Source: Oscillatoriales cyanobacterium PMM_0008 | GTDB taxonomy: Bacteria; Cyanobacteriota; Cyanobacteriia; Cyanobacteriales; Aerosakkonemataceae | Direction: 5' to 3' | Assembly: GCA_949128025.1 (NCBI GenBank) | Contig: CASBRD010000329.1 | Location: 1-33,647 of the forward strand | DNA: 33,647 bases | Shown here: positions 1-33,647 of the stretch, piece by piece | How the letters are laid out: each line of letters begins with the position of its first letter | Numbering within the stretch: position 1 is the first letter of the stretch | Translations under genes and position numbers: made by a program | Notes under the pieces: model-generated | Told to the model about the DNA's origin: nothing | The model's input: the letters and a program-made list of their open reading frames with translations, nothing else | The model's database searches: none

Positions 1-403
1 CGTTCGTCGATCGTTCTTGCAAAAAGCGCAAATTCTCCTGATGTTCCTGAGTCAGCAGATAAAGCGCATCCGCAACCACGCGGGTTTGCTGGAGTTCTTG
101 CAGATTTTGGTTCTCAGCTGCGATCGCTTGTTTTAAGTCGTCCAGCTTGGTGGTTTCCGTCGTTAACCGCGTCGAAAGTCCGGTAATAGTATTACCAAAC
201 TCCAATTGCAGATCCGCCAGTCCCCGCACAATCGTATCTGCGGTGTATTGAGAAACCGTTTCCAGAACAGTGCGGTTTTTCTCCTTCTCTGCTTCTTCCT
301 CTTTTGTGGCGACCCGCGACGCAACGTTCCGCCGTTGACTGATAATTTGTTGAAACGCATCAAGAATCTTCGCCTTGCTGTCTTTGGCTGCAATTTGAGT
401 CAT
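1..403 (-). CDS. Coiled-coil hypothetical protein, N-terminal part (3' end outside window)
   Basis: An open frame runs from an ATG at 403-401 on the minus strand off the left edge, giving at least 134 residues without a stop. The protein begins MTQIAAKDSKAKILDAFQQ and is rich in Glu, Lys, Gln and Leu, with two long heptad-like stretches (about residues 30-60 and 85-125), so a helical coiled-coil protein is likely. The frame and amino acid composition favour it over the shorter overlapping frames. No known domain is recognised. It is divergent from the XRE regulator at 576, and the roughly 170 bp between them probably hold both promoters. Function unknown. Confidence 0.7.
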   Translation of the reverse strand, partial: MTQIAAKDSKAKILDAFQQIISQRRNVASRVATKEEEAEKEKNRTVLETVSQYTADTIVRGLADLQLEFGNTITGLSTRLTTETTKLDDLKQAIAAENQNLQELQQTRVVADALYLLTQEHQENLRFLQERSTN

Positions 404-575
404 ATATAATTTTTGCTGCTAGAGTAGGATTGGGATGTAAACTGTGGTTTGCATTTCTTGTCTACTACTCTAACACCAGTTTGCCGCTTATGCAAGATGT
501 AAAGACACAATTTGTAAACTTTAGTTGTCAAAGCCTGGTCACGCCTGATTTCGCACCTCTCACACCTGACTGTAT

Positions 576-944
576 ATGGATGAATTTGCAAGCAAAGTCC
601 GCGATCGCCGCCTCCAGGAAAAACTGAGCCAGCAAGAGTTGGCCGATCGAGTCGGGATCTCCCGCAACTACCTGTCCCAAATCGAACGGGGACAAGCCAC
701 AAACCTCTCCTGGCAACTAATGGAGAAACTGACCTCCATTTTGGGGCTCAAAGGCGATCCAACGGTAACACAAGCAGAAATGGCAGATATTCCCCTCAGT
801 TTGGCTGAATTTGCCAAAGAAGCGGGATTGCCTGCTGATGACACGATCATGCTGGCTCGTTTAAAATACCGAGGACAGCAACCCACCACACCGGAAAAAT
901 GGGAACTGCTCTATAACGTGATCAAGATGACCGTTGGAAAATAA
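576..944 (+). CDS. XRE-family helix-turn-helix regulator
   Basis: A 122-residue protein with a classical XRE/Cro helix-turn-helix near the N-terminus (about residues 10-60; core LSQQELADRVGISRNYLSQI). This fold binds an operator as a dimer. The C-terminal half is helical and unassigned. It is followed after 3 bp by an ImmA/IrrE-like gene. XRE plus ImmA pairs are a known arrangement in which the peptidase-like partner cleaves or inactivates the repressor (ImmR-ImmA, DdrO-IrrE), or they act as a toxin-antitoxin pair. The partner relationship here is inferred from gene order only. The ATG at 576 sits just before the domain. Confidence 0.85.
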   Translation: MDEFASKVRDRRLQEKLSQQELADRVGISRNYLSQIERGQATNLSWQLMEKLTSILGLKGDPTVTQAEMADIPLSLAEFAKEAGLPADDTIMLARLKYRGQQPTTPEKWELLYNVIKMTVGK

Positions 945-947
945 ATA

Positions 948-1829
948 GTGCGTGAGGCTCCACCACCCGCTCAACCCTACCGCCATCCGGGAGAGGCGTT
1001 TTTGTCTGGCTACGGCGCACTCCGTAGCGAGGAGGATGTGTTCGGCTATGTGGAGTTTCTGCGCTGCGAATCGGGGTTGAGCGATCGACCGCCGATCGAT
1101 CTAGAGTGTATCTACCGACACTTTGGCATCCCGACACCTCTGCGTGCTACTCTAGACGAACAGCAAGGCATTTTGGTCGATAGCCGCACGGGAATCATTT
1201 TAATCAAAGAGAATGACCCCATTGTCCGCCAGCGCTTCACCGAGGGGCACGAATTGATGGAACTGCTGTTCGACGCCCACGAACAAGTCAGGATTGGCAG
1301 TTTTCTGCCGAATTGGAGCGGACAGCACAAAGAACGATTGTGCGATCGCGGTGCAGCAGATTTACTGATGCCCCAGTCATCTTTTTTACCTCGGTTGAAA
1401 GAGGTGGGAATTTCCCTGAGTGCGGGGAGAGTTCTGGCGACACTCTACCAAACATCCCTCTTAGCAACTTTGGTGCGAATGATACAGCAGGGTTCTGGGA
1501 ATTATGCTCTAGTAATGTGGCATTGCGCCCTCAAACCAAGGGAAGTGAGGGGACTTTCTGCCACAGTTTCCCAACCTCAAAAAAAGCTGCGGGTTTGGTG
1601 GCGAACTCAGACTTCAGATTGGACTGGGGGGTTTATTCCTAAAGATAAGTCTATTCCTCACGACTCGCTGATTTCCTACGCTTATGTCAGCGGACAACCT
1701 TATAGCGGCATGGAAACAATTCACTTGGGTTGGGGTTTGATTGACTGTCATGTAGAAGCGATGCCGATTCAGATGGGAGATAAGTATTGTGTTTTGTCTC
1801 TTCTACATTCGATCGGGCCTACGATTTGA
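948..1829 (+). CDS. ImmA/IrrE-like protein with altered metal motif
   Basis: A 293-residue protein starting at a GTG 3 bp after the XRE gene, so the two form an operon. Around residues 95-145 it has the ImmA/IrrE (COG2856) pattern: RFTEGHELMELLF, then E129 in KERLCDRGAADLLMP, which matches the usual third metal ligand followed by the LLMP signature. The usual HExxH is HELME here (H101, E102, E105), so the second histidine is a glutamate. The protein may be catalytically weak, use an unusual ligand, or only bind its partner. The C-terminal ~140 residues are unassigned. It could be the response partner of the XRE repressor or the toxin half of a pair. Confidence 0.75.
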   Translation: MREAPPPAQPYRHPGEAFLSGYGALRSEEDVFGYVEFLRCESGLSDRPPIDLECIYRHFGIPTPLRATLDEQQGILVDSRTGIILIKENDPIVRQRFTEGHELMELLFDAHEQVRIGSFLPNWSGQHKERLCDRGAADLLMPQSSFLPRLKEVGISLSAGRVLATLYQTSLLATLVRMIQQGSGNYALVMWHCALKPREVRGLSATVSQPQKKLRVWWRTQTSDWTGGFIPKDKSIPHDSLISYAYVSGQPYSGMETIHLGWGLIDCHVEAMPIQMGDKYCVLSLLHSIGPTI

Positions 1830-1902
1830 TACATTGGCACTAAGTTTAGCTTGAAAAAACAGGAGGCTCTGCCTCGATTATCTTAGTACCATTGGGATTT
1901 GA

Positions 1903-2007
1903 TATAGCAGATTGCAGGTTTATGGAGTACAGTCGATGGAGTAAGCTTTCATTACGCTAATTAAACTACTTACCTTCGTGTATTCTATTTACCTGCAATC
2001 TGCTGTA
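1903..2007. repeat. Long-spaced inverted repeat in intergenic region
   Basis: The arms at 1903-1919 and 1991-2007 are inverted copies (core AGCAGATTGCAGGT and its complement, 14 bp perfect, with outer bases nearly matching). They are separated by about 70 bp without an evident gene. The region 1830-2100 holds nothing else recognised. It resembles a small MITE-like element or a stem-loop at a transcript end. Confidence 0.6.
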
Positions 2008-2100
2008 TTTGAGGACAATTTACCTTAGCTAGGTTTTTTCCCAATAAACCGATAGTTTCTGTCACAAAATCAACATAAATTAACGTCGCGAAAAGTTACA

Positions 2101-2346
2101 CTACGAGTCGGTCATCTTGCCTTTAAGAATGAGGTAAATAGATCCTGGCAACCAGAACAACAGTGCTGTCCCGACTTGGGCAAATTTATGATTGTGGAAA
2201 CTGTCATACAAATAATAAATTGTTGACACCAAACCGATCGCACCAATAATCCGCAACGTAAATGGGTGACTCTGGGGGAAGAAACAGAAGATCGCAATAA
2301 GCTGTCGCGCATCTAAATTGTACTTCGGGACGGGCAGGATGCCCAT
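2101..2346 (-). CDS. Small membrane protein (start uncertain)
   Basis: An 81-residue frame with two hydrophobic segments (about residues 16-45 and 58-75: TLRIIGAIGLVSTIYYLYD and ALLFWLPGSIYLIL) ending KGKMTDS. The predicted N-terminus MGILPVP is read from a stretch (GGGATGGGCATCCTGCCCGT) that looks like a common cyanobacterial intergenic repeat. The true start may therefore be lost or non-standard, and the gene may be a remnant. No family recognised. A second tiny membrane protein lies directly upstream on the same strand. Confidence 0.45.
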   Translation of the reverse strand: MGILPVPKYNLDARQLIAIFCFFPQSHPFTLRIIGAIGLVSTIYYLYDSFHNHKFAQVGTALLFWLPGSIYLILKGKMTDS

Positions 2347-2379
2347 CCCACAAGAATCTTATCAAAGTTGACTGTAAAA

Positions 2380-2553
2380 TTAGATGCACAGCAGCTTAAT
2401 CGCGCACAATCCTACCATCCCTGCTGTACCCCAATAGAACAACGATAGGTTTTCAGGCGGTCTGGTGACTAATATCTCTCGTCCTTGCACAATCAAAGAA
2501 ATACCAGCAAGTATGGAGAGTATTCCCAAAATTATGTAGAAAGTTCTGTTCAT
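2380..2553 (-). CDS. Small membrane protein, 57 residues
   Basis: The minus strand encodes a 57-residue protein from ATG 2553-2551 to TAA 2382-2380. It begins MNRTFYIILGILSILAGISL and ends GLCAIKLLCI. Two hydrophobic segments (about residues 5-23 and 38-57) flank a short polar stretch with REILVTRPPENL, so a two-span inner membrane protein is likely. A degenerate copy of its first codons lies at 4821-4846, which supports the start. Function unknown. Confidence 0.6.
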   Translation of the reverse strand: MNRTFYIILGILSILAGISLIVQGREILVTRPPENLSLFYWGTAGMVGLCAIKLLCI

Positions 2554-2563
2554 TACGTCCTAC

Positions 2564-2914
2564 CTAATGAATAATCTGCCTAGTTATGTCTGATTCTCTC
2601 TCATCTAGTCTTTGAATATTTTCAAGCAGTTCTAACAAACCAACCGTACCCACGAAAAAAGTATATATTCCATATTTTATAGGCATTTGTTTTATTGCTC
2701 CTGCATAATAAGCTGCTATAATTGCCTCAACTAAATGAATTACTATAGCAAAACGCTCAATCCAAAAGACTGGATTTAGAAAGCTTGGCATTCGGCTGTT
2801 GGTTATCAATCCATAAATATTCGCTATTTCCAATCCAATGGCACTGGCAATGAGAACCACAGATATAACTTTGATAAGTCGATATAAATTTGTCTTTGTA
2901 TCCTTTAAATTCAT
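2564..2914 (-). CDS. Multi-span membrane protein, unknown function
   Basis: A 116-residue protein with three to four hydrophobic segments (VISVVLIASAIGLEIANIYG, then IERFAIVIHLVEAIIAAYYA, then GIYTFFVGTVGLLELL) and a charged C-terminus (QRLDERESDITRQIIH). The start at 2914 (MNLKDTKTNLYRLIK) is preferred. The frame stays open to 3016, but that extension is read from a dispersed palindrome (2979-3012) and is probably not translated. Conserved families were not recognised. It may form a small membrane-protein cluster with the two genes downstream. Confidence 0.65.
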   Translation of the reverse strand: MNLKDTKTNLYRLIKVISVVLIASAIGLEIANIYGLITNSRMPSFLNPVFWIERFAIVIHLVEAIIAAYYAGAIKQMPIKYGIYTFFVGTVGLLELLENIQRLDERESDITRQIIH

Positions 2915-2960
2915 ATTTTTTACTAAGTAACTCAAGTTGCTAGTTAGTTCCATTGGTTCT

Positions 2961-3012
2961 TGTTCGGAATGGATAATGGGTACGTTGTTGCGCTTTAGCG
3001 CAACAACGTACC
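2961..3012. repeat. Dispersed palindromic repeat, short-stem copy
   Basis: A perfect 15-bp stem (2979-2993 with 2998-3012; GGTACGTTGTTGCGC) with loop TTTA, preceded by the flank TGTTCGGAATGGATAAT. The same flank and stem recur at 17549-17618 with a longer stem, so this is one family of mobile or amplified palindromes. It forms the artificial 5' extension of the frame of the membrane protein at 2564-2914. Confidence 0.85.
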
Positions 3013-3041
3013 TCAATTATATAACTAGCAACTTGCGTTAA

Positions 3042-3227
3042 TTAGCAAATCTCATCCAACTCGACCCACTCGTCATAGGATGAGTCGTAATCAAGGTAAT
3101 GGATAAAGTATTGCTGACCTTGGATTTTTTCAATTGTCCCGGAATACCACTCCTCCCGATCTTCGTCCCAAACTTTCACTTTTTGACCGACGGCATATCC
3201 ATTTTCATCGGATGAATCACGATCCTG
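3042..3227 (-). pseudogene. Fragment of a Tudor-knot/chromo-like domain protein (no start codon)
   Basis: On the minus strand an open frame of 61 codons ends at TAA 3044-3042. It reads QDRDSSDENGYAVGQKVKVW, then DEDREEWYSGTIEKIQG, then QQYFIHYLDYDSSYDEWVEL. This matches the Tudor-knot/chromobarrel pattern (a VG.KV.., W..A/G.I, Y.VHY.G.....DEWV layout). The frame is bounded upstream by TAG (3230-3228) and TGA with no in-frame ATG or GTG before the domain. The 5' end is therefore missing. The break lies next to a copy of the ilvA 5' end (3247-3310), so one rearrangement may explain both. Confidence 0.6.
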
Positions 3228-3246
3228 CTAAAATCAAAAGGGACTC

Positions 3247-3310
3247 GATCGGCCCTTCGCAGACCTGTTGACCCCATGTTTGACGACTGTTTAGTATAAG
3301 TACTCAGCGT
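3247..3310 (+). pseudogene. Truncated copy of the ilvA upstream region and first codons
   Basis: Bases 3247-3310 align without gaps to 6572-6635, the region just upstream of and inside ilvA (constant offset 3325). The shared blocks include GCCCTTCGCA and ACCCCATGTTT. After the ATG at 3276 the copy reads MFDDCLV then a stop, where ilvA reads MFCDYLVQ. This is a decayed duplicate of the ilvA start, or a conserved leader copied elsewhere. No further ilvA sequence follows. Confidence 0.65.
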
Positions 3311-3376
3311 TTGTGTCGGTTATAGTAATATACCAACCTACGGCAAAATCAGAAAGATCTCAACAATGGAGGGGTT

Positions 3377-3952
3377 ATGTCTAAGCGCAAAAAGCACAAT
3401 CTCCAATGGATTAAGGAAACCCTAGAGCTAAAAGAAGACCACAACTGGAAATCACAGCCAGGAACTCGGATCTTTGTGGCGGGGCGGGGGGCGTTGCGCT
3501 TCGATGTCCCCCAAGATTGGCATTTTGAACCGGATACGAAGTCGTTCCGGTTTCTAGATAAAAAGCCACCGAACGATGATTGTCGCTTAGAAGCTTCTTT
3601 TAATTTACTGCCGCCTGGGGACTGGGCAGATTTTCCGCTGGTTCCGCTATTAAAGCAGGTGGTGCGGGATGATGAGCGAAATGCGATCGAGCAAGGCGAA
3701 ATTATTCGACTCAAGCGCCAAACCGCCCGCATCGTTTGGACTCAATTCAAATTTATCGATCCTCAAGAAAACCGTGAAGCTTATTCCCGAATCTGTATTG
3801 GGCTAGGTTCTGGAGTTCAGTGTTTGATTACTTTTGATTACTGGGTGGACGATGCGGAACGCCTGACCCCAGTATGGGATACGGTGATGGAATCGTTGGT
3901 TCTCGGTTTGTATATCCGCGATCCGCGAACGGGACTGGCATTCCCCGATTAG
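3377..3952 (+). CDS. Conserved hypothetical protein
   Basis: A 191-residue soluble protein with no signal peptide or membrane segment. The start is supported by the Shine-Dalgarno GGAGGGG a few bases before the ATG. The N-terminus is basic (MSKRKKHNLQWIKE). The middle contains FDVPQDWHFEPDTKSFRFLD and later aromatic-rich strands, suggesting an alpha/beta fold. I do not recognise a family. It is monocistronic by appearance, followed by an inverted repeat at 4004-4067. Confidence 0.75.
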   Translation: MSKRKKHNLQWIKETLELKEDHNWKSQPGTRIFVAGRGALRFDVPQDWHFEPDTKSFRFLDKKPPNDDCRLEASFNLLPPGDWADFPLVPLLKQVVRDDERNAIEQGEIIRLKRQTARIVWTQFKFIDPQENREAYSRICIGLGSGVQCLITFDYWVDDAERLTPVWDTVMESLVLGLYIRDPRTGLAFPD

Positions 3953-4003
3953 TAGGTTACCAAATTAATGAAAATAATTTGGTTATTTCGAGTCAGTTAT
4001 GCA

Positions 4004-4067
4004 GTAGGGACACGGCATAATTAAAAATTTGCTATGACCGACATTATTTATCATGCCGTGTCCCTAC
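4004..4067. repeat. Inverted repeat (15-bp perfect arms)
   Basis: The arms GTAGGGACACGGCAT (4004-4018) and its exact complement (4053-4067) enclose a 34-bp AT-rich loop. This is the form of a small cyanobacterial MITE-like palindrome or a transcript-end stem-loop. It lies after the gene at 3377-3952 and before the Uma2 gene. Confidence 0.75.
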
Positions 4068-4148
4068 CATCATAATTCCAAAAGGCAGATTTTTTGCTGA
4101 TAAACCCCGTTTCTGGGTAAGTCCTAAAACTGTGGAGATTAAAATCAA

Positions 4149-4748
4149 ATGGTTATGCAAGCAGAAGATAAAAAATATTACACTCCTGAAGAATACCTCG
4201 ATTTTGAGGTTAACTCGGAAGAACGCCATGAATATATAAACGGGGAGATTGTTCTGATGACTGGTGGAATGCCAAATCACAACCAAATTGCTGGGAATTT
4301 CTATGCTGCTTTAAACTTTGCCCTTAAGCGCCAGCCTTATCGAGTCTTTGTTACAGATCAACGTCTTTGGATTCCGAGAAAACGCATTCATACCTATCCT
4401 GATGTGATGGTAGTTCAAGGTGAGTTGCAATTGCAAGAAGGACGGCGAGACACAATTACTAACCCGTTAATCATCGCTGAGGTTTTGTCCGATTCGACGA
4501 GAAATTATGACAAAGATGCCAAATTTTCGGCTTATCGAACTATTCCTAGCTTTCAAGAATATCTCCTCATCGATCAATATACTATGCACGTCGAGCAGTT
4601 CTTCAAAACGGATAATAAACGTTGGACTTTTTCTGAGTATGATGAGGCTGATGAAACGATTTCGTTAAATTATATTTCTTTTCAAATCACACTGACTGAT
4701 ATTTATGATAAAGTTGAGTTTGAGGTAACACAAAATAACGAGGGTTAG
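4149..4748 (+). CDS. Uma2-family (DUF820) restriction-endonuclease-like protein
   Basis: A 199-residue member of the Uma2/DUF820 family, which has the PD-(D/E)xK nuclease fold and is hugely expanded in cyanobacteria. Visible signature: YTPEEYLDFE at the N-terminus, HEYINGEIVLMTGG with E33, TYPDVMVV with D85, then PLIIAEVLSDSTRNYDKDAK with E111 and K125. Length is typical. The real substrate is not established for the family. It stands alone, unlike the tandem pair at 11-12 kb. A repeat array of CGCAGAT units follows the stop. Confidence 0.9.
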   Translation: MVMQAEDKKYYTPEEYLDFEVNSEERHEYINGEIVLMTGGMPNHNQIAGNFYAALNFALKRQPYRVFVTDQRLWIPRKRIHTYPDVMVVQGELQLQEGRRDTITNPLIIAEVLSDSTRNYDKDAKFSAYRTIPSFQEYLLIDQYTMHVEQFFKTDNKRWTFSEYDEADETISLNYISFQITLTDIYDKVEFEVTQNNEG

Positions 4749-4760
4749 GAAGACTTTTAA

Positions 4761-4800
4761 CCGCAGATGCACGCAAATAAACGCAGATAAACGCAGATAA
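4761..4800. repeat. Short tandem CGCAGAT/CGCAAAT repeat
   Basis: Four degenerate units of the form (A)CGCAGATAA stand in tandem directly after the Uma2 gene. A related copy occurs at 31855-31894 between cas4 and cas1. This is a dispersed short repeat without a coding role. Confidence 0.7.
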
Positions 4801-4820
4801 CAATTATGGATAGGAATCCC

Positions 4821-4846
4821 CAAATATTATAGAAAGTTCTGTTCAT
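4821..4846 (-). pseudogene. Degenerate copy of the 5' end of the 57-residue membrane protein gene
   Basis: The minus strand reads ATGAACAGAACTTTCTATAA from 4846, nearly identical to the start of the gene at 2380-2553 (MNRTFY). Similarity fades after about 25 bases. The rest of the gene is absent. Confidence 0.5.
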
Positions 4847-4891
4847 AATTTTTTAGTCAGTATAATAGACCAAATCTGGAATTAATTCAAT

Positions 4892-5467
4892 ATGCCTGAA
4901 GATCAACTCAATCTCTCGGTTTCATCGATTTTTGTGAACCGCTTTGATGAAGCTACTAATCTGCAAAGTAACGGTAACCATGAGGAGGCTTTAGAAAAAT
5001 ATCAAGCTATATTTAGAGATGAAGATGGTGGAAAAAGTGAACGTGTAATAACAGCAGAATTTTATGCAACAGTTGAGATGCGGAAAGCTTACTGTTTGAT
5101 GGATTTGCAAAAATATCAAGAGGCGAAAGCAATTTTCGAGGAATTGGATGATTTTTTTGCAGGTCAACTCGATATGATCGGTTTATACGATTTTTATTTT
5201 GCCTATGGTAATACACTCGGTAATCTCGGTTTGCTAAAAGAGATGGAAGGTAAAATGGCGCGGGCAATGAATATTGCTGCTGAATATTTGGAAGATGGGG
5301 AGAAATTCCGCAATGTTTGGTATTGGGTGCTTTACTGGGAAGGATTTCATCAAGCTTGGGAATCCTTATCCAAACTTTCTGTTTCTGCGTATGGATTTGG
5401 AGTAGAAAACAACGATTTGGAATTACAGGAGATGGCACTCAAATTTCGCTCAATATTCGCAGATTAG
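4892..5467 (+). CDS. TPR-like helical repeat protein
   Basis: A 191-residue all-helical protein with TPR-like units: RFDEATNLQSNGNHEEALEK (about 18-37), then MRKAYCLMDLQKYQEAKAIF (about 64-83), then FAYGNTLGNLGLLKEMEGKM (about 108-127). Such repeats act as protein-binding scaffolds. No signal peptide or membrane segment is visible. No partner can be deduced from the neighbours. Specific function unknown. Confidence 0.75.
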   Translation: MPEDQLNLSVSSIFVNRFDEATNLQSNGNHEEALEKYQAIFRDEDGGKSERVITAEFYATVEMRKAYCLMDLQKYQEAKAIFEELDDFFAGQLDMIGLYDFYFAYGNTLGNLGLLKEMEGKMARAMNIAAEYLEDGEKFRNVWYWVLYWEGFHQAWESLSKLSVSAYGFGVENNDLELQEMALKFRSIFAD

Positions 5468-5703
5468 CCGATCGCACACTGGGTAGAATTGAATAATCTA
5501 AGTTGATTTTAATTCAACTCACTATTTATGGTCAATGTTAGTGGTAAGTACGGCATGGTGTTGGAAACACGGAGACTGTTGCTCCACTCAATGAAGGGAA
5601 ATATTCTACGTTCCGATCTCTGTTCACCAAAGTAGAATTGCAACAAGCCAATCAATGTACATTAGACATCTCCAGAAATTAAAGGTGCGTTACCTGTAAC
5701 CCT

Positions 5704-5733
5704 TGTAGAGACGTTGCACGCAACGTCTCTACA
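5704..5733. repeat. Palindrome with 14-bp arms
   Basis: TGTAGAGACGTTGC, a 2-base loop (AC), then the exact complement. This looks like a common dispersed palindrome of cyanobacterial genomes. It is not followed by a T-run, so a role as a terminator is not shown. Confidence 0.8.
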
Positions 5734-5754
5734 TTCTTTGAAAGGAGATGTCCA

Positions 5755-5817
5755 ATGAGTCTTCCGGTTCAAGTAAATGTAATGAATGAAACAATGTACA
5801 TTGACCTTTCAAGCTAG
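5755..5817 (+). CDS. Possible 20-residue peptide
   Basis: An ATG lies 7 bases after the strong Shine-Dalgarno AAAGGAG (5741-5747) and opens 20 codons, MSLPVQVNVMNETMYIDLSS, ending in TAG. The only support is the ribosome binding site. It may be a chance ORF or the tail of a decayed gene. Confidence 0.25.
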   Translation: MSLPVQVNVMNETMYIDLSS

Positions 5818-5820
5818 TAT

Positions 5821-6270
5821 CTAGTTGCTAAAAGCATCCTTGATGCTATCAACAGTGCGTTCAATAGCATTTTTGGTGTTGTCTACTGCTTTCTGAGTCC
5901 GAGCCGAATCTTCATCTGCTCTTTTTTCAATTCGAGCCGCATCTGTCTTGGCCTTACGCTCAACGAAACTACCATCGTCATCCGTTGCTTGGTCAACTCG
6001 ATCGGCATTTTTATTGGCGGTGCGCTTGACTTTATCTGCCGTATCTTGAATGAAATCCTTGGTTCGTCCAGCATCTTCACTGGCTTTCTCCTGAACCTTA
6101 GAGCCAGCATCTGCTGCTGCGATTAAGTTTACAGCAGGAGCCGCCATTGCGGCGGTGTTTGAGAAAAACGCACCCTGCCAAACGAAGGCGATCGCGGAAA
6201 GACAAAACAGAGTTGTAGCTATCCAGCGTCCTACAACTGAAAGCCGTTTCGTAAAATAATTCAGTTTCAT
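5821..6270 (-). CDS. Exported or membrane-anchored charged helical protein (LEA-like)
   Basis: A 149-residue protein with an N-terminal signal peptide or anchor (MKLNYFTKRLSVVGRW, a hydrophobic stretch, then AAMAAPAVN as a likely cleavage area near residue 43). The rest is a long, highly charged amphipathic helix rich in Lys, Asp, Ala and Arg, with loose 11-residue periodicity (ADKVKRTANKNADRVDQATD). This resembles LEA-like or low-temperature-induced proteins of cyanobacteria. The ATG at 6270 is preferred over the TTG three codons upstream. Function inferred only. Confidence 0.7.
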   Translation of the reverse strand: MKLNYFTKRLSVVGRWIATTLFCLSAIAFVWQGAFFSNTAAMAAPAVNLIAAADAGSKVQEKASEDAGRTKDFIQDTADKVKRTANKNADRVDQATDDDGSFVERKAKTDAARIEKRADEDSARTQKAVDNTKNAIERTVDSIKDAFSN

Positions 6271-6279
6271 AGAATACAA

Positions 6280-6600
6280 TCTTCATGAGATTTAGCATTC
6301 TATTTTTACTTCATCTGGCTCATTGGTCAAATCGTTCTCCAGATAGAGGTTCTTCCGTCATAAGTTATTAAACGAATTCACTACTTTGATAGATTGAAAG
6401 CGGTGGCTCCCGTATTCGTCCACACCAGTTCCGTTTTCATCCGATAAAAGGGGGCGCGGGTTGTGTCCCGTAAAGGGGACTGGGTAATGCGATCGCGATC
6501 GCACTCTCGCACACTTCTAATCGCCAACCACACCCACAGAACAGCGCCGCAAGTAGCGTAAAATTGTCTTTGATCCGCCCTTCGCACACCCCTTCACCCC
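6280..6600. other. Intergenic region upstream of ilvA
   Basis: This 320-bp stretch lies between the divergent exported protein and ilvA. On the minus strand a gene-like tail ends near 6381 (RAPFYRMKTELVWTNTGA), but no start or domain can be supported, so it may be a relic. The last 30 bases before ilvA are the block duplicated at 3247-3275. No riboswitch or leader peptide for branched-chain amino acids was recognised. Confidence 0.4.
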
Positions 6601-8112
6601 ATGTTTTGCGACTACCTGGTACAAATCCTCACCGCCCGCGTCTACGATGTTGCCCAAGAAACGCCCCTGGAATACGCCCCAAACCTGTCTGCACGCCTGA
6701 ATAACAAACTTTTGCTCAAACGGGAGGATATGCAGTCCGTCTTCTCCTTCAAGCTGCGGGGTGCTTACAACAAGATGGTAAATTTGTCGCCGGATAAGCT
6801 AGCACAGGGTGTAATTGCTGCGTCTGCGGGAAACCACGCTCAGGGAGTCGCTCTCGGTGCCCGTAAGCTGGGGACAACAGCTATTATCGTGATGCCAGTA
6901 ACTACGCCTCAAGTGAAGGTGGACGCGGTTAAAGCGCGTGGGGGAGAGGTGGTGCTATATGGTGATACATACGACGATGCTTATGCCTTTGCTCGTCAAT
7001 TGGAAGCGGAAAAAGGGTTGACTTTTATTCATCCGTTTGACGATCCTTATGTAATTGCCGGACAAGGTACGATCGGGATGGAGATTCTGCGGCAATATCA
7101 GCAACCGATTCATGCTATTTTTGTGGCGATCGGCGGTGGTGGCTTAATTTCTGGGATTGGCGCTTATGTGAAACGGTTGCGTCCTGACATCAAGATTATT
7201 GGCGTTGAACCAGTGGATGCGGATGCTATGTATCAATCCTTGAAAGCGGGACATCGGGTGCGCTTATCGCAGGTGGGTTTATTTGCGGATGGCGTTGCGG
7301 TGCGGGAAGTGGGGGAAGAAACTTTCCGTCTGTGTCAGCAATACGTAGATGAAATTATTCTGGTGGATACGGATGATACTTGTGCTGCGATTAAAGATGT
7401 GTTCGAGGATACGCGATCGATCTTAGAACCCGCAGGTGCATTAGCGATCGCAGGTGCCAAAGCCTACGTCGAACGGGAACAAATCCAGGGACAAACCTTA
7501 GTTGCCGTAGCCTGCGGTGCTAACATGAATTTCGATCGCCTCCGTTTTGTAGCAGAACGAGCAGAATTTGGCGAACGCCGCGAAGCCATTTATGCCGTCA
7601 CCATTCCCGAAGAACCAGGTAGTCTCCGCCGGTTTTGCGAATGTCTTGGTAGACGCAACCTCACCGAATTTAGCTATCGCATTGCTGACGAAAAAGAAGC
7701 ACATATTTTTGTAGGCGTGCAGATTCAAAACCGTGCCGACGCGGCAACAATGGTAGAAAGTTTTGAAAAATGTGGATTCAAAACCATTGATTTAACCGAT
7801 GATGAATTGACCAAATTGCATTTACGCCACATGGTTGGCGGACGTTCTTCCCTCGCTCATAATGAATTGCTTTACCGTTTCGAGTTTCCCGAACGTCCCG
7901 GTGCATTAATGAAGTTTGTCGGTTCTATGAGTCCCGACTGGAATATCAGTATGTTCCACTATCGCAACAATGGCGCAGACTACGGGAGAATTGTTGTCGG
8001 AATGCAAGTTCCCCCCAACGAAATGGGAGAGTGGCAGGCATTTCTCGATACGCTGGGATATCGCTATTGGGATGAAAGTAATAATCCGGCTTATAAGTTG
8101 TTTTTGGGGTAG
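6601..8112 (+). CDS. ilvA: Threonine ammonia-lyase, biosynthetic (threonine deaminase)
   Basis: A 503-residue PLP enzyme that converts L-threonine to 2-oxobutanoate and ammonia, the first committed step of isoleucine synthesis, in the cytoplasm. The N-terminal catalytic domain (about 1-320) shows the PLP lysine K51 in SVFSFKLRGAYNKM, the phosphate-binding loop AIGGGGLISG near 175-185, and SAGNHAQG near 75-82. Two ACT-like regulatory domains follow (about 330-503; each starts with an EEPGSL or ERPGAL motif), where isoleucine inhibits and valine activates in this family. Length is normal. The start MFCDYLVQILTARVYDVAQE fits the family. Confidence 0.97.
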   Translation: MFCDYLVQILTARVYDVAQETPLEYAPNLSARLNNKLLLKREDMQSVFSFKLRGAYNKMVNLSPDKLAQGVIAASAGNHAQGVALGARKLGTTAIIVMPVTTPQVKVDAVKARGGEVVLYGDTYDDAYAFARQLEAEKGLTFIHPFDDPYVIAGQGTIGMEILRQYQQPIHAIFVAIGGGGLISGIGAYVKRLRPDIKIIGVEPVDADAMYQSLKAGHRVRLSQVGLFADGVAVREVGEETFRLCQQYVDEIILVDTDDTCAAIKDVFEDTRSILEPAGALAIAGAKAYVEREQIQGQTLVAVACGANMNFDRLRFVAERAEFGERREAIYAVTIPEEPGSLRRFCECLGRRNLTEFSYRIADEKEAHIFVGVQIQNRADAATMVESFEKCGFKTIDLTDDELTKLHLRHMVGGRSSLAHNELLYRFEFPERPGALMKFVGSMSPDWNISMFHYRNNGADYGRIVVGMQVPPNEMGEWQAFLDTLGYRYWDESNNPAYKLFLG

Positions 8113-8222
8113 GAGAAAAAGAGCAAGCGTATAGTATGGAAAAGATTCGGCATTGGTTTACTATTAATATCTGGGAATGGTAAAATAGATGATAAGTGAA
8201 GACATTTAATAGTATAAACGTT

Positions 8223-8516
8223 GTGTTTGAAATTGAGTTTACAGACCTAGCTGTTGATGATTTGCAGTGGTTCAAAAAACACGAACAAAACGTAATTATT
8301 GATGGCATTGAAGCAAATCTTAGCTATCAGCCAACAACTGAGACGCGCAACCGAAAACCCCTACGCCCAAATAATACGGCAGAATGGGAATTGAGGTTGG
8401 GCGAGTATCGCGTTTTGTACAACGTTGACGAGCTAGTTAGTATTGTAAGTATAGAGCGCGTAGCTGGCAAGCCAGGAAACAAGTACATATTTCAAGGAGA
8501 AGAGGGAGAACTATGA
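8223..8516 (+). CDS. RelE/ParE-superfamily toxin
   Basis: A protein of about 97 residues with RelE/StbE-like features: FEIEFTDLAVDDLQWFKKHE, then RKPLRPN, WELRLGEYRVLYNV and a C-terminal IERVAGKPGNKY. Members cleave mRNA on the ribosome or poison gyrase. The GTG at 8223 is chosen because it places the family's opening strand at the N-terminus; a GTG at 8196 would add nine residues. Neither has a clear ribosome binding site. The stop overlaps the next start (ATGA), so the pair is translationally coupled, toxin first. Confidence 0.75.
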   Translation: MFEIEFTDLAVDDLQWFKKHEQNVIIDGIEANLSYQPTTETRNRKPLRPNNTAEWELRLGEYRVLYNVDELVSIVSIERVAGKPGNKYIFQGEEGEL

Positions 8517-8830
8517 TGCACTGGGATTATCGGGTATTATTAGAGGATGGCGGCTACACGATCCGCACGGTATATTACGATGACGAGGGTACGATTGTTG
8601 CCTGTTCGGAAAAATCGCTCGAACCTTTTGGAGAATCGCTAGAAGCCCTTCAAGAAGAACTAAATCTTCTCCAAACAGCTATCACAAAGAAAGTTATTTC
8701 TGCTTCAGATATACCACCCCAAACTGTTCGCCCAAAGGTAAAAAGAGGAAAATCGTTAGCAGCAGTGCGACAACAACTTGGCTTACAACCGGAAGTAGTT
8801 AAAGAAGGTTCGTTGAATTCAAAAGATTAA
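8513..8830 (+). CDS. Putative antitoxin partner of the RelE-like toxin
   Basis: A 105-residue protein beginning MMHWDYRVLLEDGGYTIRTV, with an N-terminal beta-rich half and a basic C-terminal tail (RPKVKRGKSLAAVRQQLGLQ). It overlaps the toxin stop by 4 bp. The family is common downstream of RelE-like toxins in cyanobacteria. The antitoxin role is inferred from position only, and no DNA-binding motif is certain. Confidence 0.6.
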   Translation: MMHWDYRVLLEDGGYTIRTVYYDDEGTIVACSEKSLEPFGESLEALQEELNLLQTAITKKVISASDIPPQTVRPKVKRGKSLAAVRQQLGLQPEVVKEGSLNSKD

Positions 8831-8840
8831 GGCAATAAAA

Positions 8841-9212
8841 ATGAATCAAGAAATTAGAGTACAAGCAAGTAGCGGCAATGTGTTTGCTGATTTAGGTTTA
8901 GAAAACGCTGATGAACTGCTTGTGAAAGCAGAACTAGCCCGTAAAATTAGCAGCATAATTACCAAGCAAAAGATGACACAAGCGGAAGCAGCAGAACTTT
9001 TAGGGATTGACCAATCAAAAGTGTCTGCCCTCATAAACGGAAAGTTATCTGGCTTTTCAACTGTACGGCAGTTTTGCTTAAGCGACGAACAAATTGCAGC
9101 AGCGTTAAACTTACCATTGGAGGTGGTTAAATCGGTGAAATTGGAGGGGGAAATTTGGTGGAGTGGATATAGCATTGGGTGTAGCGATGTCCCAGAGTAT
9201 AGAATATATTAG
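8841..9212 (+). CDS. HigA-like XRE antitoxin with an unusual C-terminus
   Basis: The first ~75 residues match the XRE antitoxin family (NVFADLGLENADELLVKAEL, then MTQAEAAELLGIDQSKVSAL, then INGKLSGFST). In the usual family the GKLSGFST motif is followed by a dimerisation tail. Here it switches to LSDEQIAAALNLPLEVVKSV, which looks like the C-terminal helix of an unrelated family, and then to a short odd tail (EGEIWWSGYSIG). This suggests a fusion after deletion. It sits 10 bp after the putative antitoxin at 8513-8830 and 18 bp before a HigB-like toxin, so its own toxin may be gone. Confidence 0.7.
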   Translation: MNQEIRVQASSGNVFADLGLENADELLVKAELARKISSIITKQKMTQAEAAELLGIDQSKVSALINGKLSGFSTVRQFCLSDEQIAAALNLPLEVVKSVKLEGEIWWSGYSIGCSDVPEYRIY

Positions 9213-17508: not shown

Positions 17509-17548
17509 AATTTTTGTCTCAGGTATTTAGGGTAGGGGAGTGACTCTT

Positions 17549-17618
17549 GTTCGGAATGGATAATCGGTATGTTGTTGCGCTTTAGCGCTAAAAGAGCGCT
17601 AAAGCGCAACAACGTACC
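17549..17618. repeat. Dispersed palindromic repeat, long-stem copy
   Basis: A 24-bp stem (17566-17589 with 17595-17618, one G-T pair) and a 5-base loop, preceded by the same flank (TGTTCGGAATGGATAAT) as the copy at 2961-3012. The inner palindrome GCGCTTTAGCGC of the short copy appears doubled here. Confidence 0.85.
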
Positions 17619-18764: not shown

Positions 18765-18851
18765 GTGGATGGTTATTCGATCGCACTTAAACCCGTTTAC
18801 TCTTGCCCTGCGTCGGAAGTGCCACAGGGCGTTAACCTCCCAGAAGGTTAG
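18765..18851 (+). pseudogene. Truncated copy of the cas3 5' end
   Basis: An ORF of 28 codons from GTG 18765 reads VDGYSIALKPVYSCPASEVP then QGVNLPEG and stops. The intact cas3 at 19577 reads IALKPVYSCPASEVPEGVQL at residues 20-39. The DNA is identical over 29 bases (18777-18805 with 19631-19659) and then diverges. This is the left-over 5' end of an older or duplicated cas3, now separated from the intact gene by a toxin-antitoxin pair. Confidence 0.85.
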
Positions 18852-19584: not shown

Positions 19585-21799
19585 CGAGCAACTGTTTCCA
19601 GCTTACGGACTGAGCGATCGCTTCATCAACTCGATCGCACTTAAACCCGTTTACTCTTGTCCCGCGTCCGAAGTGCCAGAAGGCGTTCAGCTACCGGAGG
19701 GTTGGTCGCTTTCCTGGCATCAAGCCGCAACTTTGGAGGCAATACGCGACCCGAATATCGACGTTATCTTTAATACCGCCATGACGGGCGACGGCAAAAG
19801 TTTGGCAGCTTATCTAGAGACTTTACTGACAGACTTTTTGGCAATCGGTCTATATCCAACTAATGAACTTGCGCGTGACCAGGAAACCCAAATTCAGGAC
19901 TATATTACCAAATTTCAGCTTAAAATTAAGCCGCGTGTTGTGCGACTCAGTGGGCAACAATTAGAGATTTATGCTGAAAATGAAGGGCTAAAGAAAGCAG
20001 CGGCAATTGCTACTCGCACAGGACAAGCTGAAATCCTACTGGCGAACCCAGATATGCTTCACTACTTGCATCGAGGTGCATATTTAACTCGTGATGACAG
20101 TCCTGATAAGCTGTGGAACCGGATTGACAAAGATTTCGATCTATTCATTTTTGATGAATTTCATGTTTTTCAGGCTCCGCAAATTGCCAGCGCGATTAAC
20201 ACAATGCTGTTAATTAAAAATACGAATCGCCGCAAGAAATTTCTCTTTTTATCAGCAACCCCAAATAAACAACTGATAGAGAGATTAAGGTTATCTGGCT
20301 TTCGGTGCAAGGAAATTAACCCACTGGAGGAGAATAAATATCAGTTTCCAGATACAGAGGAGCAGTGTCAGCAACTGAAAGCAGAAGGATGGCGACAAGT
20401 ATCGCGAGAAATCTCTCTTCAGTTTATCTCCCTGGAACCAACTTCTAAAGCTTCTGAAACTTGGTTGAAAGAAAGCCGTAATCTCATCTTGGCTCACTTT
20501 CAGCAGCATCCAGGTAGCAAAGGGGCAATCATTCTCAACTCGATCGCAGCAGTGAAACGTCTGACGCCGTTCTTTCGAGAATTGCTGGCACCTCATGGTT
20601 TAGTAGTTGGCGAGAATACGGGCTTATCTGGTCAGGAGGAAAAAGCGCGATCGCTACAAGCTGACTTGGTTATCGGTACTAGCACAATCGATGTCGGCGT
20701 TGATTTCAAGATTAATTTTCTAATTTTTGAATCAGCAGATGCAGGTAGCTTCATCCAGCGGTTAGGACGTTTAGGACGGCATGACGGATATGAACAAAAT
20801 GGGCAAAATATTACTTTTGTAACTTTCACAGCTTACGCACTCGTACCCAATTTTCTAGTAGAAAAGCTGTTTCTCGGTGATTCGCCACCTTTAGAAGCAA
20901 GTAGCATCTATGACCGTTCCTTCTTTCACAATCAAATTCGTGACAATTACCGCCGAATCAATGATTTTGAAGGATATTACTCTCGCTGGGGTGCAGTACA
21001 GTCAATGCGGATTTGCCGACAGCTAGGACATAAGACAATTAAGCAGCAGTATGAAGGCAGTCAGAACGCATTTCAAACGGCTTGCGAAAAAGTGTTTAAT
21101 ACTAGCCTGAAAAAGGTGTTTGGTCTTAGCATGGCATGGGAAAGAGAGTGGCAACAACTCTCAGGTAAGGAAAAGGGAAATCCAATTACAGAAGATGCAG
21201 CAAGTTTTCGAGGGTCTAGTCCTCTTGGGTGCGGCATTTACGATCTAACAGAATCAAATGAGGCAGATAGGTTTAAAACTTACGATTTGCCAGGAATTTT
21301 GAGCAATCTGGAAATTGAAGTGATGACTAAAGAGGAGTTTATGCGATCGCTTCTCCAAACTGCTGAACGCATCGGACAACCCATCGCTAAAGGGCGATTT
21401 GCATACTGTCTCGCCTTCATGAAGTTACGGACATATCGGGAAGAACGGCTAAACTGGCGCTTTACCTATTCAGGCAAGTTGGATGCGATCGCAGATGCTT
21501 GGAAGGTTCAAGTTTTGAGAGGTATCGAGGTTTGGCAACCTGAGAACTATTGGATTGGTGAAATCAATAAGCGACTGAGGAAAGAAGCTTTAGTCAGTTA
21601 TGTGCTGCGTCGTCCGGTGGCGGAAGTGCGATCGCGCTTACGACTCCCCATGCACTTTGCGATTTACCCGATTAGCGACCAATACAGTTTTCACGATCCA
21701 ACTGCGCCTTATTCTATAGCGTTCAGCCAGTCCGCTTTACTGCTGGACACCCTTGCCTATTCGTTCAAAAGCAAAGGAGGCGAGATATGGATTGCTTAG
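19577..21799 (+). CDS. cas3: Type I-D CRISPR-associated helicase Cas3' (no HD domain)
   Basis: A 740-residue superfamily 2 helicase that unwinds and translocates target DNA after Cascade binding. Motifs: Walker A TAMTGDGKS (67-75, K74), YPTNELARDQ (93-102), DEFH (193-196), SATPN (226-230), GTSTIDVGVDF (367-377), QRLGRLGR (394-401). No HD nuclease motif is present, as expected for I-D where Cas10d carries it. The start MNDEQLFPAYG is chosen because it has a GAGGA ribosome binding site; the frame is open 26 codons further into the toxin gene. A degenerate CRISPR repeat begins 3 bp after the stop. Confidence 0.95.
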   Translation: MNDEQLFPAYGLSDRFINSIALKPVYSCPASEVPEGVQLPEGWSLSWHQAATLEAIRDPNIDVIFNTAMTGDGKSLAAYLETLLTDFLAIGLYPTNELARDQETQIQDYITKFQLKIKPRVVRLSGQQLEIYAENEGLKKAAAIATRTGQAEILLANPDMLHYLHRGAYLTRDDSPDKLWNRIDKDFDLFIFDEFHVFQAPQIASAINTMLLIKNTNRRKKFLFLSATPNKQLIERLRLSGFRCKEINPLEENKYQFPDTEEQCQQLKAEGWRQVSREISLQFISLEPTSKASETWLKESRNLILAHFQQHPGSKGAIILNSIAAVKRLTPFFRELLAPHGLVVGENTGLSGQEEKARSLQADLVIGTSTIDVGVDFKINFLIFESADAGSFIQRLGRLGRHDGYEQNGQNITFVTFTAYALVPNFLVEKLFLGDSPPLEASSIYDRSFFHNQIRDNYRRINDFEGYYSRWGAVQSMRICRQLGHKTIKQQYEGSQNAFQTACEKVFNTSLKKVFGLSMAWEREWQQLSGKEKGNPITEDAASFRGSSPLGCGIYDLTESNEADRFKTYDLPGILSNLEIEVMTKEEFMRSLLQTAERIGQPIAKGRFAYCLAFMKLRTYREERLNWRFTYSGKLDAIADAWKVQVLRGIEVWQPENYWIGEINKRLRKEALVSYVLRRPVAEVRSRLRLPMHFAIYPISDQYSFHDPTAPYSIAFSQSALLLDTLAYSFKSKGGEIWIA

Positions 21800-32000: not shown

Positions 32001-33005
32001 ATGGGAACGGTTTATATCACGACTGAAGATGCTTTTGTGGGGAAAAGTGATGAATGTTTGTTGGTGAAGGCGAAGAATGAAAAGATTTTGGATGTGCCTT
32101 TAATTAAGGTTGATGGGGTTGTGGTTTTGGGTAGGGCTACGGTTTCGCCTGCGGTGGTGAATGAGTTGTTGTTACGGCACATTCCTTTGAGTTTTTTGAC
32201 TGAGACTGGACGTTATTTGGGACGTTTGGAGCCGGAAATGAGTAAAAATATTTTTGTGCGAAAGGCGCAGTGGGATGCTGCTGGGGAATCTCCTCAAGCT
32301 ATTCATTTGGTGAAAGGGTTTGTGCGTGGTAAGTTGAAGAATTATCGGATGTTGTTGTTGCGACAAGGGCGGAAATATTCGGAGCTGGATTTGGATGGGG
32401 CAATTGCTCGGATTGAAAACTCTATTGGCCCGATCGAGGAAACTAATAAGATCGATTCTTTGCGGGGTTTGGAAGGTTCTGGGAGTGCTGGTTATTTCGG
32501 TGCTTTTAATCAGTTGATTCGGGTGGAGGGGTTTAGTTTTAATGGGAGAAACCGCCGTCCTCCTACGGATTCGGTTAATGCAATGCTGAGTTTTGGTTAT
32601 TCTTTGCTGCGTCACGATATCCAAAGTGCGGTTAATTTGGTGGGGTTCGATCCTTATTTGGGATATCTTCATTGCCAACATTACGGTCGTCCTAGTTTGG
32701 CGTTGGATTTGATGGAGGAGTTTCGTCCGTTGGTGGTTGATGCTTTTGTTTTGGGTGCGATTAATTTGCGGAAGGTTAGTCCGGGTGATTTTACGATCGA
32801 ACCGCTTAGTAATGCGGTGTTGCTATCTGCTGAGGGACGGCGTGAGTTTCTGAAACTATATGAGGAGAAGAAGCAATCGAAGTTTAAACATCCGGTGTTG
32901 GGACGACAATGTACTTATCAGGAGGCGTTTGAGATTCAGGCGCGTTTGGTGGCGAAGTATTTGATGGGCGAGATTGAGAAGTATCCTCCTTTGGTGTTGA
33001 AATAA
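32001..33005 (+). CDS. cas1: CRISPR integrase Cas1
   Basis: A 334-residue type I Cas1. Catalytic residues: E158 in LRGLEGSGSAGYFGAF, H224 in GYLHCQHYGRPSLALDL and E239 in DLMEEFRP. The length and the GTVYITTEDAFVGKSDECLL start are typical of I-D Cas1. Preceded by GGTGAGGAAATCAAC as ribosome binding site region. The cas2 start follows 1 bp after its stop. Confidence 0.97.
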   Translation: MGTVYITTEDAFVGKSDECLLVKAKNEKILDVPLIKVDGVVVLGRATVSPAVVNELLLRHIPLSFLTETGRYLGRLEPEMSKNIFVRKAQWDAAGESPQAIHLVKGFVRGKLKNYRMLLLRQGRKYSELDLDGAIARIENSIGPIEETNKIDSLRGLEGSGSAGYFGAFNQLIRVEGFSFNGRNRRPPTDSVNAMLSFGYSLLRHDIQSAVNLVGFDPYLGYLHCQHYGRPSLALDLMEEFRPLVVDAFVLGAINLRKVSPGDFTIEPLSNAVLLSAEGRREFLKLYEEKKQSKFKHPVLGRQCTYQEAFEIQARLVAKYLMGEIEKYPPLVLK

Positions 33006-33006
33006 G

Positions 33007-33279
33007 ATGTTTGTTGTTGTCTCTTACGATATTTCGGAGGATAGTCGTCGGACTAAGGTTCATTCTGTCCTCAAGTCTTACGGACAGTGGATGCAGTTTA
33101 GTGTGTTTGAGTGTGATTTGACGGAGACGCAATATGCTAAACTCCGATCGCGTCTGGGTAAGCTGATTAAACCTGAGTCGGACAGTATCCGCTTTTACTT
33201 CCTGTGTGTGTGCTGCCAAGGTAAGGTGGAGCGGATTGGGGGCGAAGCGGTGCGCGATGATTCGATTTTCTTTGCTTAG
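33007..33279 (+). CDS. cas2: CRISPR adaptation protein Cas2
   Basis: A 90-residue Cas2 (MFVVVSYDISEDSRRTKVHS; D8 at the conserved position; YGQWMQFSVFECDLTE). It forms the dimer core of the Cas1-Cas2 integrase. It ends about 250 bp before the array. Confidence 0.96.
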   Translation: MFVVVSYDISEDSRRTKVHSVLKSYGQWMQFSVFECDLTETQYAKLRSRLGKLIKPESDSIRFYFLCVCCQGKVERIGGEAVRDDSIFFA

Positions 33280-33530: not shown

Positions 33531-33647
33531 CTGGAAATCGACTAAAATCCCTTTCAGGGATTGAAACTATTTAAAAGCTCGTAAAAGTTACCGCAATTCA
33601 GAAGCTGGAAATCGACTAAAATCCCTTTCAGGGATTGAAACCTTGTC
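33531..33647 (+). CRISPR. CRISPR array, leader-proximal end (continues outside the window)
   Basis: Two identical 37-bp repeats (33531-33567 and 33605-33641) begin CTGGAAATCGACTAAAATCC and end CAGGGATTGAAAC. The core AATCCCT-TTC-AGGGATT forms a 7-bp hairpin for Cas6, leaving an 8-base 3' handle ATTGAAAC. One complete spacer of 37 bp (33568-33604) and six bases of the next are seen. The orientation, same strand as the cas genes, follows from leader position and the repeat 3' end. Confidence 0.97.

Follow-up and report, generated by a model that had tools for sequence, protein, structure and literature searches.

A stretch of 33,647 nucleotides from Oscillatoriales cyanobacterium PMM_0008 (assembly GCA_949128025.1, contig CASBRD010000329.1, positions 1 to 33,647; the whole of it is called the window here) carries ilvA, the gene for threonine dehydratase, and upstream of it a second copy of the ilvA leader and gene start at positions 3247–3310. 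This block is probably a decayed relic of the ilvA front end at the ancestral place of the gene, a later rearrangement having put genes between the relic and the working ilvA. The copy, its place, its presence in three members of the genus, its decay and the gene order of relatives can be read directly from the genomes compared, in which genomes and loci are referred to by G and L numbers, respectively.

The two sites form a direct repeat in which positions 3247–3309 match 6572–6634 with 76% identity over 63 bases, ungapped and at a constant offset of 3325. Taken to 3310 and 6635, 48 of the 64 bases match, again with no gaps. For 1500 random 64-mers of the window, the best ungapped match elsewhere on the same strand averaged 32.4 (standard deviation 2.2), and nine of the 1500 reached at least 48, draws landing on real repeats included; the block lies about 7 standard deviations above the mean. 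A search of the PMM_0008 genome with the ilvA leader returned the leader itself and the block at 3247–3310, the next match having an E value of 2.1. The block comprises the leader, an ATG at 3276 and about 11 codons of the ilvA start, and its frame reads MFDDCLV, seven codons, before a TAA stop at 3297–3299. The original prediction, made from the letters of the window, had described a gap-free second copy of the ilvA leader and start that stops after MFDDCLV, and both statements agree with the match count, the two places in the genome and the positions of the ATG and the stop. In pairwise alignment the likeness reaches further upstream, to a TAAAAT at 3229–3234 that lies opposite a TAAAAT at 6559–6564 with a 5-base shift. 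TAAAAT-like hexamers recur in a multiple alignment of the ilvA leaders of relatives, and the one beside the block seems to be a putative −10-like hexamer that was copied along with the leader. On the other side, the junction between the ilvA part and the region upstream of the next gene, gene 3377, is placeable by alignment only to about 3300–3334.

Comparison with the two sister genomes, G001 and G002, indicates decay. Over the 80 bases 3231–3310 the copy is identical at 74 positions (0.925) in each sister, and synonymous third positions are identical at 0.93 (G001) and 0.87 (G002) in gene 3377, at 0.91 (G001) in the adjoining Uma2-family gene and at 0.88 in ilvA, so that the copy shows no clear excess of conservation. 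The 66 bases next to it are identical at 65 and 64 positions in the sisters, the intergenic stretch 3953–4148 is 0.96 identical in G001, and neighbouring intergenic stretches range from 0.96 to 0.99 overall. The block is a truncated, broken-frame homologue of a gene that is intact in the same genome and evolves without clear constraint, the sites being few and weak constraint possible. Because the frame stops after seven codons and the ATG is lost in the G002 copy, the block is better described as a decaying relic than as a leader peptide, and a short leader peptide was rejected on account of the lost ATG. No Rfam family was found in positions 1–9000 of the window and no unusual folding was seen (z −0.24 for the leader and 0.26 for the copy); with no Rfam match and ordinary folding, a riboswitch, attenuator or other RNA regulator was also rejected. 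A single sigma-70-like consensus site at 3268–3297 is not evidence of function. The original prediction had left a choice between a decayed ilvA duplicate and a copied leader, with regulatory structure in the leader as a point to check. What stands is a decayed copy of leader and start; the leader as a regulatory element fell away, with neither an Rfam family, nor unusual folding, nor conservation clearly above neutral.

It is conceivable that the copied ilvA promoter was retained since it now drives gene 3377, which lies downstream of the block on the same strand; TAAAAT is kept in all three species, and the one sigma-70-like site falls within the block. We consider this promoter capture unlikely. 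The block is not clearly above synonymous sites in conservation and is less conserved than the adjacent intergenic bases, and in relatives without the ilvA copy gene 3377 is preceded by a conserved block of its own, at about 3334.

A dispersed repeat, found widely before unrelated genes, had been named at the outset as the result that would speak against a gene relic. It was looked for, and the block was not found upstream of unrelated genes in 40 relatives, in 10 genomes of the family or in its own genome, where the sequence has two places. The outside matches to the block (G029 and G007) are ilvA starts, and the four of the ten family genomes that match are the three with the orthologous block plus G007, which matches via its ilvA start. 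A dispersed repeat or miniature inverted-repeat transposable element was therefore rejected.

The features of the locus are listed below by position and strand.

2101–2553, minus strand: first copy of gene 2101, on the Tudor-knot side of the relic, split in the window.
3042–3224, minus strand: remnant of a Tudor-knot repeat gene, last repeat only, with no start codon (PF11717, E 9e-6).
3229–3234, plus strand: TAAAAT, putative −10-like hexamer copied with the leader, aligned with 6559–6564.
3247–3310, plus strand: relic of the ilvA leader and first 11 or so codons, 76% identical to 6572–6634, with an orthologous block in G001 and G002.
3311–3376, plus strand: fusion to the region upstream of gene 3377, from alignment; similarity to G023 begins at 3312 and the conserved CAACCTACGGCA block of relatives at about 3334.
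3377–3952, plus strand: gene 3377, 191 amino acids, no Pfam family; also upstream of ilvA in G004, G005, G006 and G008.
4149–4748, plus strand: Uma2-family gene (PF05685, E 4e-35).
4801–4852, plus strand: relic of a second copy of gene 2101, 83% identical to 2508–2553 and 85–92% identical to the near-ilvA copy in G004, G005, G006 and G008.
5821–6279, minus strand: gene 5824, the present next upstream neighbour of ilvA, with a homologous stretch in G023 directly after gene 3377.
6559–6600, plus strand: candidate promoter-like hexamer and leader of the working ilvA, similar in 14 aligned ilvA leaders.
6601–8112, plus strand: ilvA, threonine dehydratase, 503 amino acids (PF00291, PF00585).

The genes between the relic and the working ilvA are gene 3377, the Uma2 gene, a TPR gene and gene 5824. 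A Pfam scan of these four found no integrase family, and Uma2 alone passed its cut-off.

The setting of the relic points to the former position of ilvA. The Tudor-knot remnant is cut just past its last repeat, with the ilvA promoter-like hexamer within a few bases. In G006 and G005 the matching repeat is the end of a full 433 amino acid gene, divergent from ilvA, and the distance from the start of this gene to the ilvA ATG is 273 bp in G006 and 271 bp in G005. The G006 protein has both Tudor-knot and Agenet matches, and the remnant in the window is 81% identical in DNA to the 3′ end of the G006 gene. The order of genes in G006 is 3377, Uma2, 2101, Tudor-knot gene and ilvA, and G005 has the same order with Uma2 in parts only. 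In G004 it is 3377, Uma2, 2101 and ilvA, as it is in G008 with traces only of Uma2, and neither has a Tudor-knot match. The window itself reads 2101, Tudor-knot remnant, ilvA front end, 3377, Uma2, second gene 2101 relic and, further downstream, 5824 and ilvA. As relatives keep ilvA beside the divergent Tudor-knot gene, the block would be the old position of ilvA. The original prediction had already placed the copy at the break of a Tudor-knot-like gene and proposed a rearrangement there. The broken gene is confirmed by the PF11717 match, its end at 3042 on the minus strand and its missing start codon, and the rearrangement is supported by the gene order of relatives, with the Tudor-knot gene intact beside ilvA in G005 and G006. 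Refined on this comparison of loci, the block would mark the ancestral ilvA position, and the working ilvA would be the one that was separated from it. A longer ilvA copy, which had been suggested as something to seek in related genomes, was not found in the ilvA loci read from the three genus members.

Orthologues of the block are present in both sisters, each 94% identical over 95 bases, and the block is therefore older than the three genus members. The sisters have kept different parts of the surroundings. Beside the block, G002 shows 134 bases of the Tudor-knot remnant as well as a trace of Uma2. G001, which also has the block, lacks the remnant; there the second gene 2101 persists as a 53-codon stretch downstream of Uma2, and a second fragment of the ilvA front end lies just upstream of gene 5824.

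From this we infer a recombination step and an order of events. In the ancestral state, ilvA would have stood beside a divergent Tudor-knot repeat gene. A segment with its own ilvA front end, preceded by 3377, Uma2 and a copy of gene 2101, would then, in the ancestor of the genus, have been joined into the ilvA start, either by tandem or unequal duplication or by single-crossover or one-sided insertion. Such joining would rebuild a complete ilvA downstream and strand the old front end upstream, and deletions that followed would have left little of the Tudor-knot gene and taken away parts of the flank that had been duplicated. Partial duplication at a gene end, whether tandem, unequal or by a single crossover, would account for such arrangements, the geometry being the same for each.

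Among these routes, a plain tandem duplication within the genus, spanning the segment from 3377 to the ilvA start and followed by reciprocal loss, is quite possible if short of probable. Nothing foreign would be involved, and the junction would run from about codon 11 of ilvA to the region upstream of gene 3377. The direct orientation agrees with this, as does the similarity to the 3377 upstream region that starts right after the ilvA part. Second copies of the neighbours also occur in the expected order, the second gene 2101 following Uma2 both in the window (4801–4852) and in G001. However, the two gene 2101 copies are not each other's closest relatives.

Several observations weigh against the relic and its rearrangement as reconstructed here, the gene 2101 copies being among them. 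The first copy is 74–79% identical to all others compared (155 columns), and the second copy of G001 is 83–87% identical to those of four relatives and 78% identical to the first copy of G001. Because the copies are not sisters, a simple duplication within the genus would require that the first copy evolved fast or that a source lay outside. In G005 and G006 the M78 gene that flanks the first gene 2101 copy on the left sits on other contigs, so that a further rearrangement is needed. By bit score the G029 ilvA start is as close to the block as is the window's own ilvA, and the window's own case is carried by 63 bases only. Nor was there support for the idea that lineages generally exchange ilvA 5′ ends. 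Synonymous third positions were compared in ten bins, and the 5′ fifth of ilvA proved slightly less alike than the last seven bins (mean −0.045), with argG (+0.018) and purA (+0.050) pointing the opposite way; the strongest exchange-like pairs, G354 with G262 (0.80 versus 0.60) and G023 with G072 (0.86 versus 0.69), are only suggestive.

Truncated ilvA ends are not confined to this genus, and comparable outcomes came about several times at the ilvA of this cyanobacterial order. The survey covered 94 ilvA loci, namely the window, 13 relatives and 80 loci of the order that were chosen from a ranking by similarity to the window IlvA and are not a random sample. Each locus was searched with its own ilvA at an E value of at most 1e-4. 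Flanks were unequal, four loci having less than 3.5 kb upstream; matches above the threshold in G008, L110 and L121 were dropped before counting, and matches ending inside the leader or the first two codons were excluded. End fragments of ilvA were found in 10 of the 94 loci, or in 8 of 92 with the genus counted once. They lie upstream in the window, G001, G002, G023, G035, G072, G123 and G339, and downstream in G023, G104 and G117. A further 80 named contigs included 23 with at least 78% identity to the query protein, three of them already in the set; one of the 20 new cyanobacterial loci, that of Cyanosarcina radialis (L237), carries a front-end copy of 144 bases, and the remaining 57 contigs, mostly proteobacterial by title, have no fragment at E 1e-4 or better. 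Exact ilvA matches identify three relatives at the level of the order as a Dolichospermum, a Nostoc and a Calothrix.

Two of these fragments are described in their own right. In the Cyanosarcina radialis locus (L237:8723–9916, plus strand) the ilvA front end, about 37–39 codons, is in frame with a RoxA-like cytochrome c domain in a frame of 397 amino acids, a possible capture of promoter and start codon by an incoming gene. In G104 (L087), a 176-base copy of the ilvA 3′ end, 4781–4956 downstream of the ilvA start, is 97.7% identical and the closest of all fragments.

As controls, 40 argG loci (picked from 53 found) and 40 purA loci (from 52 found) of the same order were searched. No end fragments were found in the 40 argG or the 40 purA loci, the sole match being one of 18 bases on the other strand in one purA locus. 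By Fisher's test, 10/94 against 0/80 gives p 0.002, 8/92 against 0/80 with the genus counted once gives p 0.008, and 11/114 cyanobacterial against 0/57 other ilvA loci gives p 0.017. Among all frames of at least 300 residues in the 174 loci (n = 902), about six besides ilvA have an end relic of the same geometry. Compared with these other long frames, ilvA has 8/92 against 7/728 (p 6e-5), the seven having been chosen by eye; on recount the clear cases were six (L074, L075, L089, L114, L118 and L213), two of which may be one event. End relics thus occur at other genes too and ilvA has more of them, a modest surprise for which a genome-wide control is needed. Relics of long conserved genes may stay recognisable for longer, and the two control genes remove this bias only in part.

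The 14 fragments (13 in the 94 loci plus L237) are all on the same strand as ilvA, with 5′ pieces upstream and 3′ pieces downstream. A truncated end outside, an intact gene inside, a common strand and other DNA between are what a single-crossover or one-sided insertion would leave, in which incoming linear or circular DNA carries a homologous ilvA end and a foreign cassette and enters by homology-facilitated illegitimate recombination or Campbell integration. This route, too, is a realistic candidate that stops somewhat short of the probable. The interposed proteins scanned include a BrnT toxin (G072), a PIN toxin (G035), Uma2 (G339), a KAP NTPase with a DUF3368 protein (G104) and a Y1 transposase (G023), a cargo that suits incoming DNA; three small interposed proteins (98, 75 and 78 residues) matched no family, and the interposed stretches of G117 are, by look, not toxin-antitoxin genes. 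The clearest polarity comes from G339. Its sisters G361 and G378 share the flank next to the fragment, which in them stops 184 and 263 bp short of ilvA, and the Uma2 stretch of G339 is for this reason a newcomer. This stretch has no counterpart in the other ilvA loci compared, those of the sisters included, nor elsewhere in its own locus, so that tandem duplication need not be the general rule. The second fragment of G001, which scores best against G362, resembles the ilvA starts of other genera (86% identity to that of G362) more than its own (78%), as insertion of outside DNA would allow. On the other hand, genes 3377 and Uma2 of the window are old upstream neighbours of ilvA and not clearly foreign, the synonymous sites carry no donor signature, and G035 and G339 have fragments whose nearest match is the ilvA of the same genome. 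The G123 fragment likewise scores best against the ilvA of its own genome; for G023 and G072 the fragment of each ties with the ilvA of the other, and the G002 block scores best with G029. Taken together, the comparison with possible donors is mixed.

The G035 locus shows further structure. Its interposed pair is found directly upstream of ilvA in G224 and G137, and its flank beyond the fragment shares a stretch with the region upstream of ilvA in G117 and G069. This arrangement looks like layers, which is not proof of transfer. In G023 (L051, 13964–14660), the Y1-transposase gene between the ilvA fragment and ilvA has palindromic repeats at both ends, and the unit resembles what is known as a REP (repetitive extragenic palindrome)-associated transposase unit.

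Recurrence at one gene, together with mobile-type cargo in several loci and the Y1 transposase in G023, might suggest a site-specific mobile element for which the ilvA 5′ end serves as attachment site and which brings a replacement front end with it. This is disfavoured as highly improbable. The inner ends of the fragments vary (+14, +30/+33, +111, +167, +187, +299, +316 and +328), so that there is no common crossover point, and such an element at the ilvA 5′ end was rejected for that reason; moreover, there is no integrase among the four interposed genes of the window, and 3′ ends of ilvA are affected too.

Elsewhere, tandem duplication followed by random loss, a process discussed mostly for mitochondria, alters gene order and leaves relics of both copies. 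The ilvA locus is alike in gene order and relics, but differs in that the gene 2101 copies are not sisters. In the excerpt of the Escherichia coli study that bears on this question, plasmid integration often left a duplicated lacZ end, of 109–950 bp in 14 sequenced clones (PMC3240628), which lends the one-sided route a precedent. As far as that excerpt goes, such Campbell-type integration is alike in that a truncated end and an intact gene flank the inserted DNA in direct orientation; the ilvA case differs in being natural, old, decayed and recurrent. The same excerpt describes homology-facilitated illegitimate recombination, the product of which is an insertion with a deletion (PMC3240628). 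It resembles the ilvA loci in having one homologous end, one non-homologous junction and foreign DNA beside a conserved gene, whereas the product, as described there, is without a retained gene-end duplicate, unlike the ilvA relics. Work on gene-gain hotspots reports, in its excerpted text, that many lack recognisable mobile elements and that the flanking core genes are often homologously recombined (PMC5635113). Accessory genes there likewise gather beside a conserved gene, often without a mobile element, whereas at ilvA gene-end relics mark the events, and relics go unmentioned in that excerpt (PMC5635113). Judged by title and the opening of the abstract, none of the open papers found in a small search deals with ilvA end relics, which does not establish novelty.

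Other repeats were seen in the window. A 49-base direct repeat at 2958–3006 and 17545–17593, 92% identical, has a palindrome-like core (TTGTTGCGCTTTAGCGCAACAA in the first copy) and lies near the broken Tudor-knot gene. A 73-base direct repeat at 18777–18849 and 19631–19703 (86% identical, 854 bases apart) is a possible further partial gene duplication. At the window end, 33531–33641, two identical 37-base repeats 74 bases apart are by look the start of a clustered regularly interspaced short palindromic repeat array; the frames at 32001–33005 and 33007–33279 have sizes that we presume to be those of cas1 and cas2.

Tentatively, and with some doubt, the ends of ilvA can be viewed as a recurrent landing place for cassettes (toxin-antitoxin, Uma2, transposase), where each arrival rebuilds ilvA and strands the prior end, and where layers accumulate, two of them in G001. 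Taken singly, the block of the window is an ordinary gene relic, and the survey of ilvA ends is worth more. If the landing-place view is true, gene-end relics would offer a general and legible trace of genes acquired next to core genes with no mobile element involved. Should a genome-wide survey confirm this, relics would let gene-gain events beside integrase-free core genes be read and ordered, and they could also serve to test duplication against incoming DNA as the cause.
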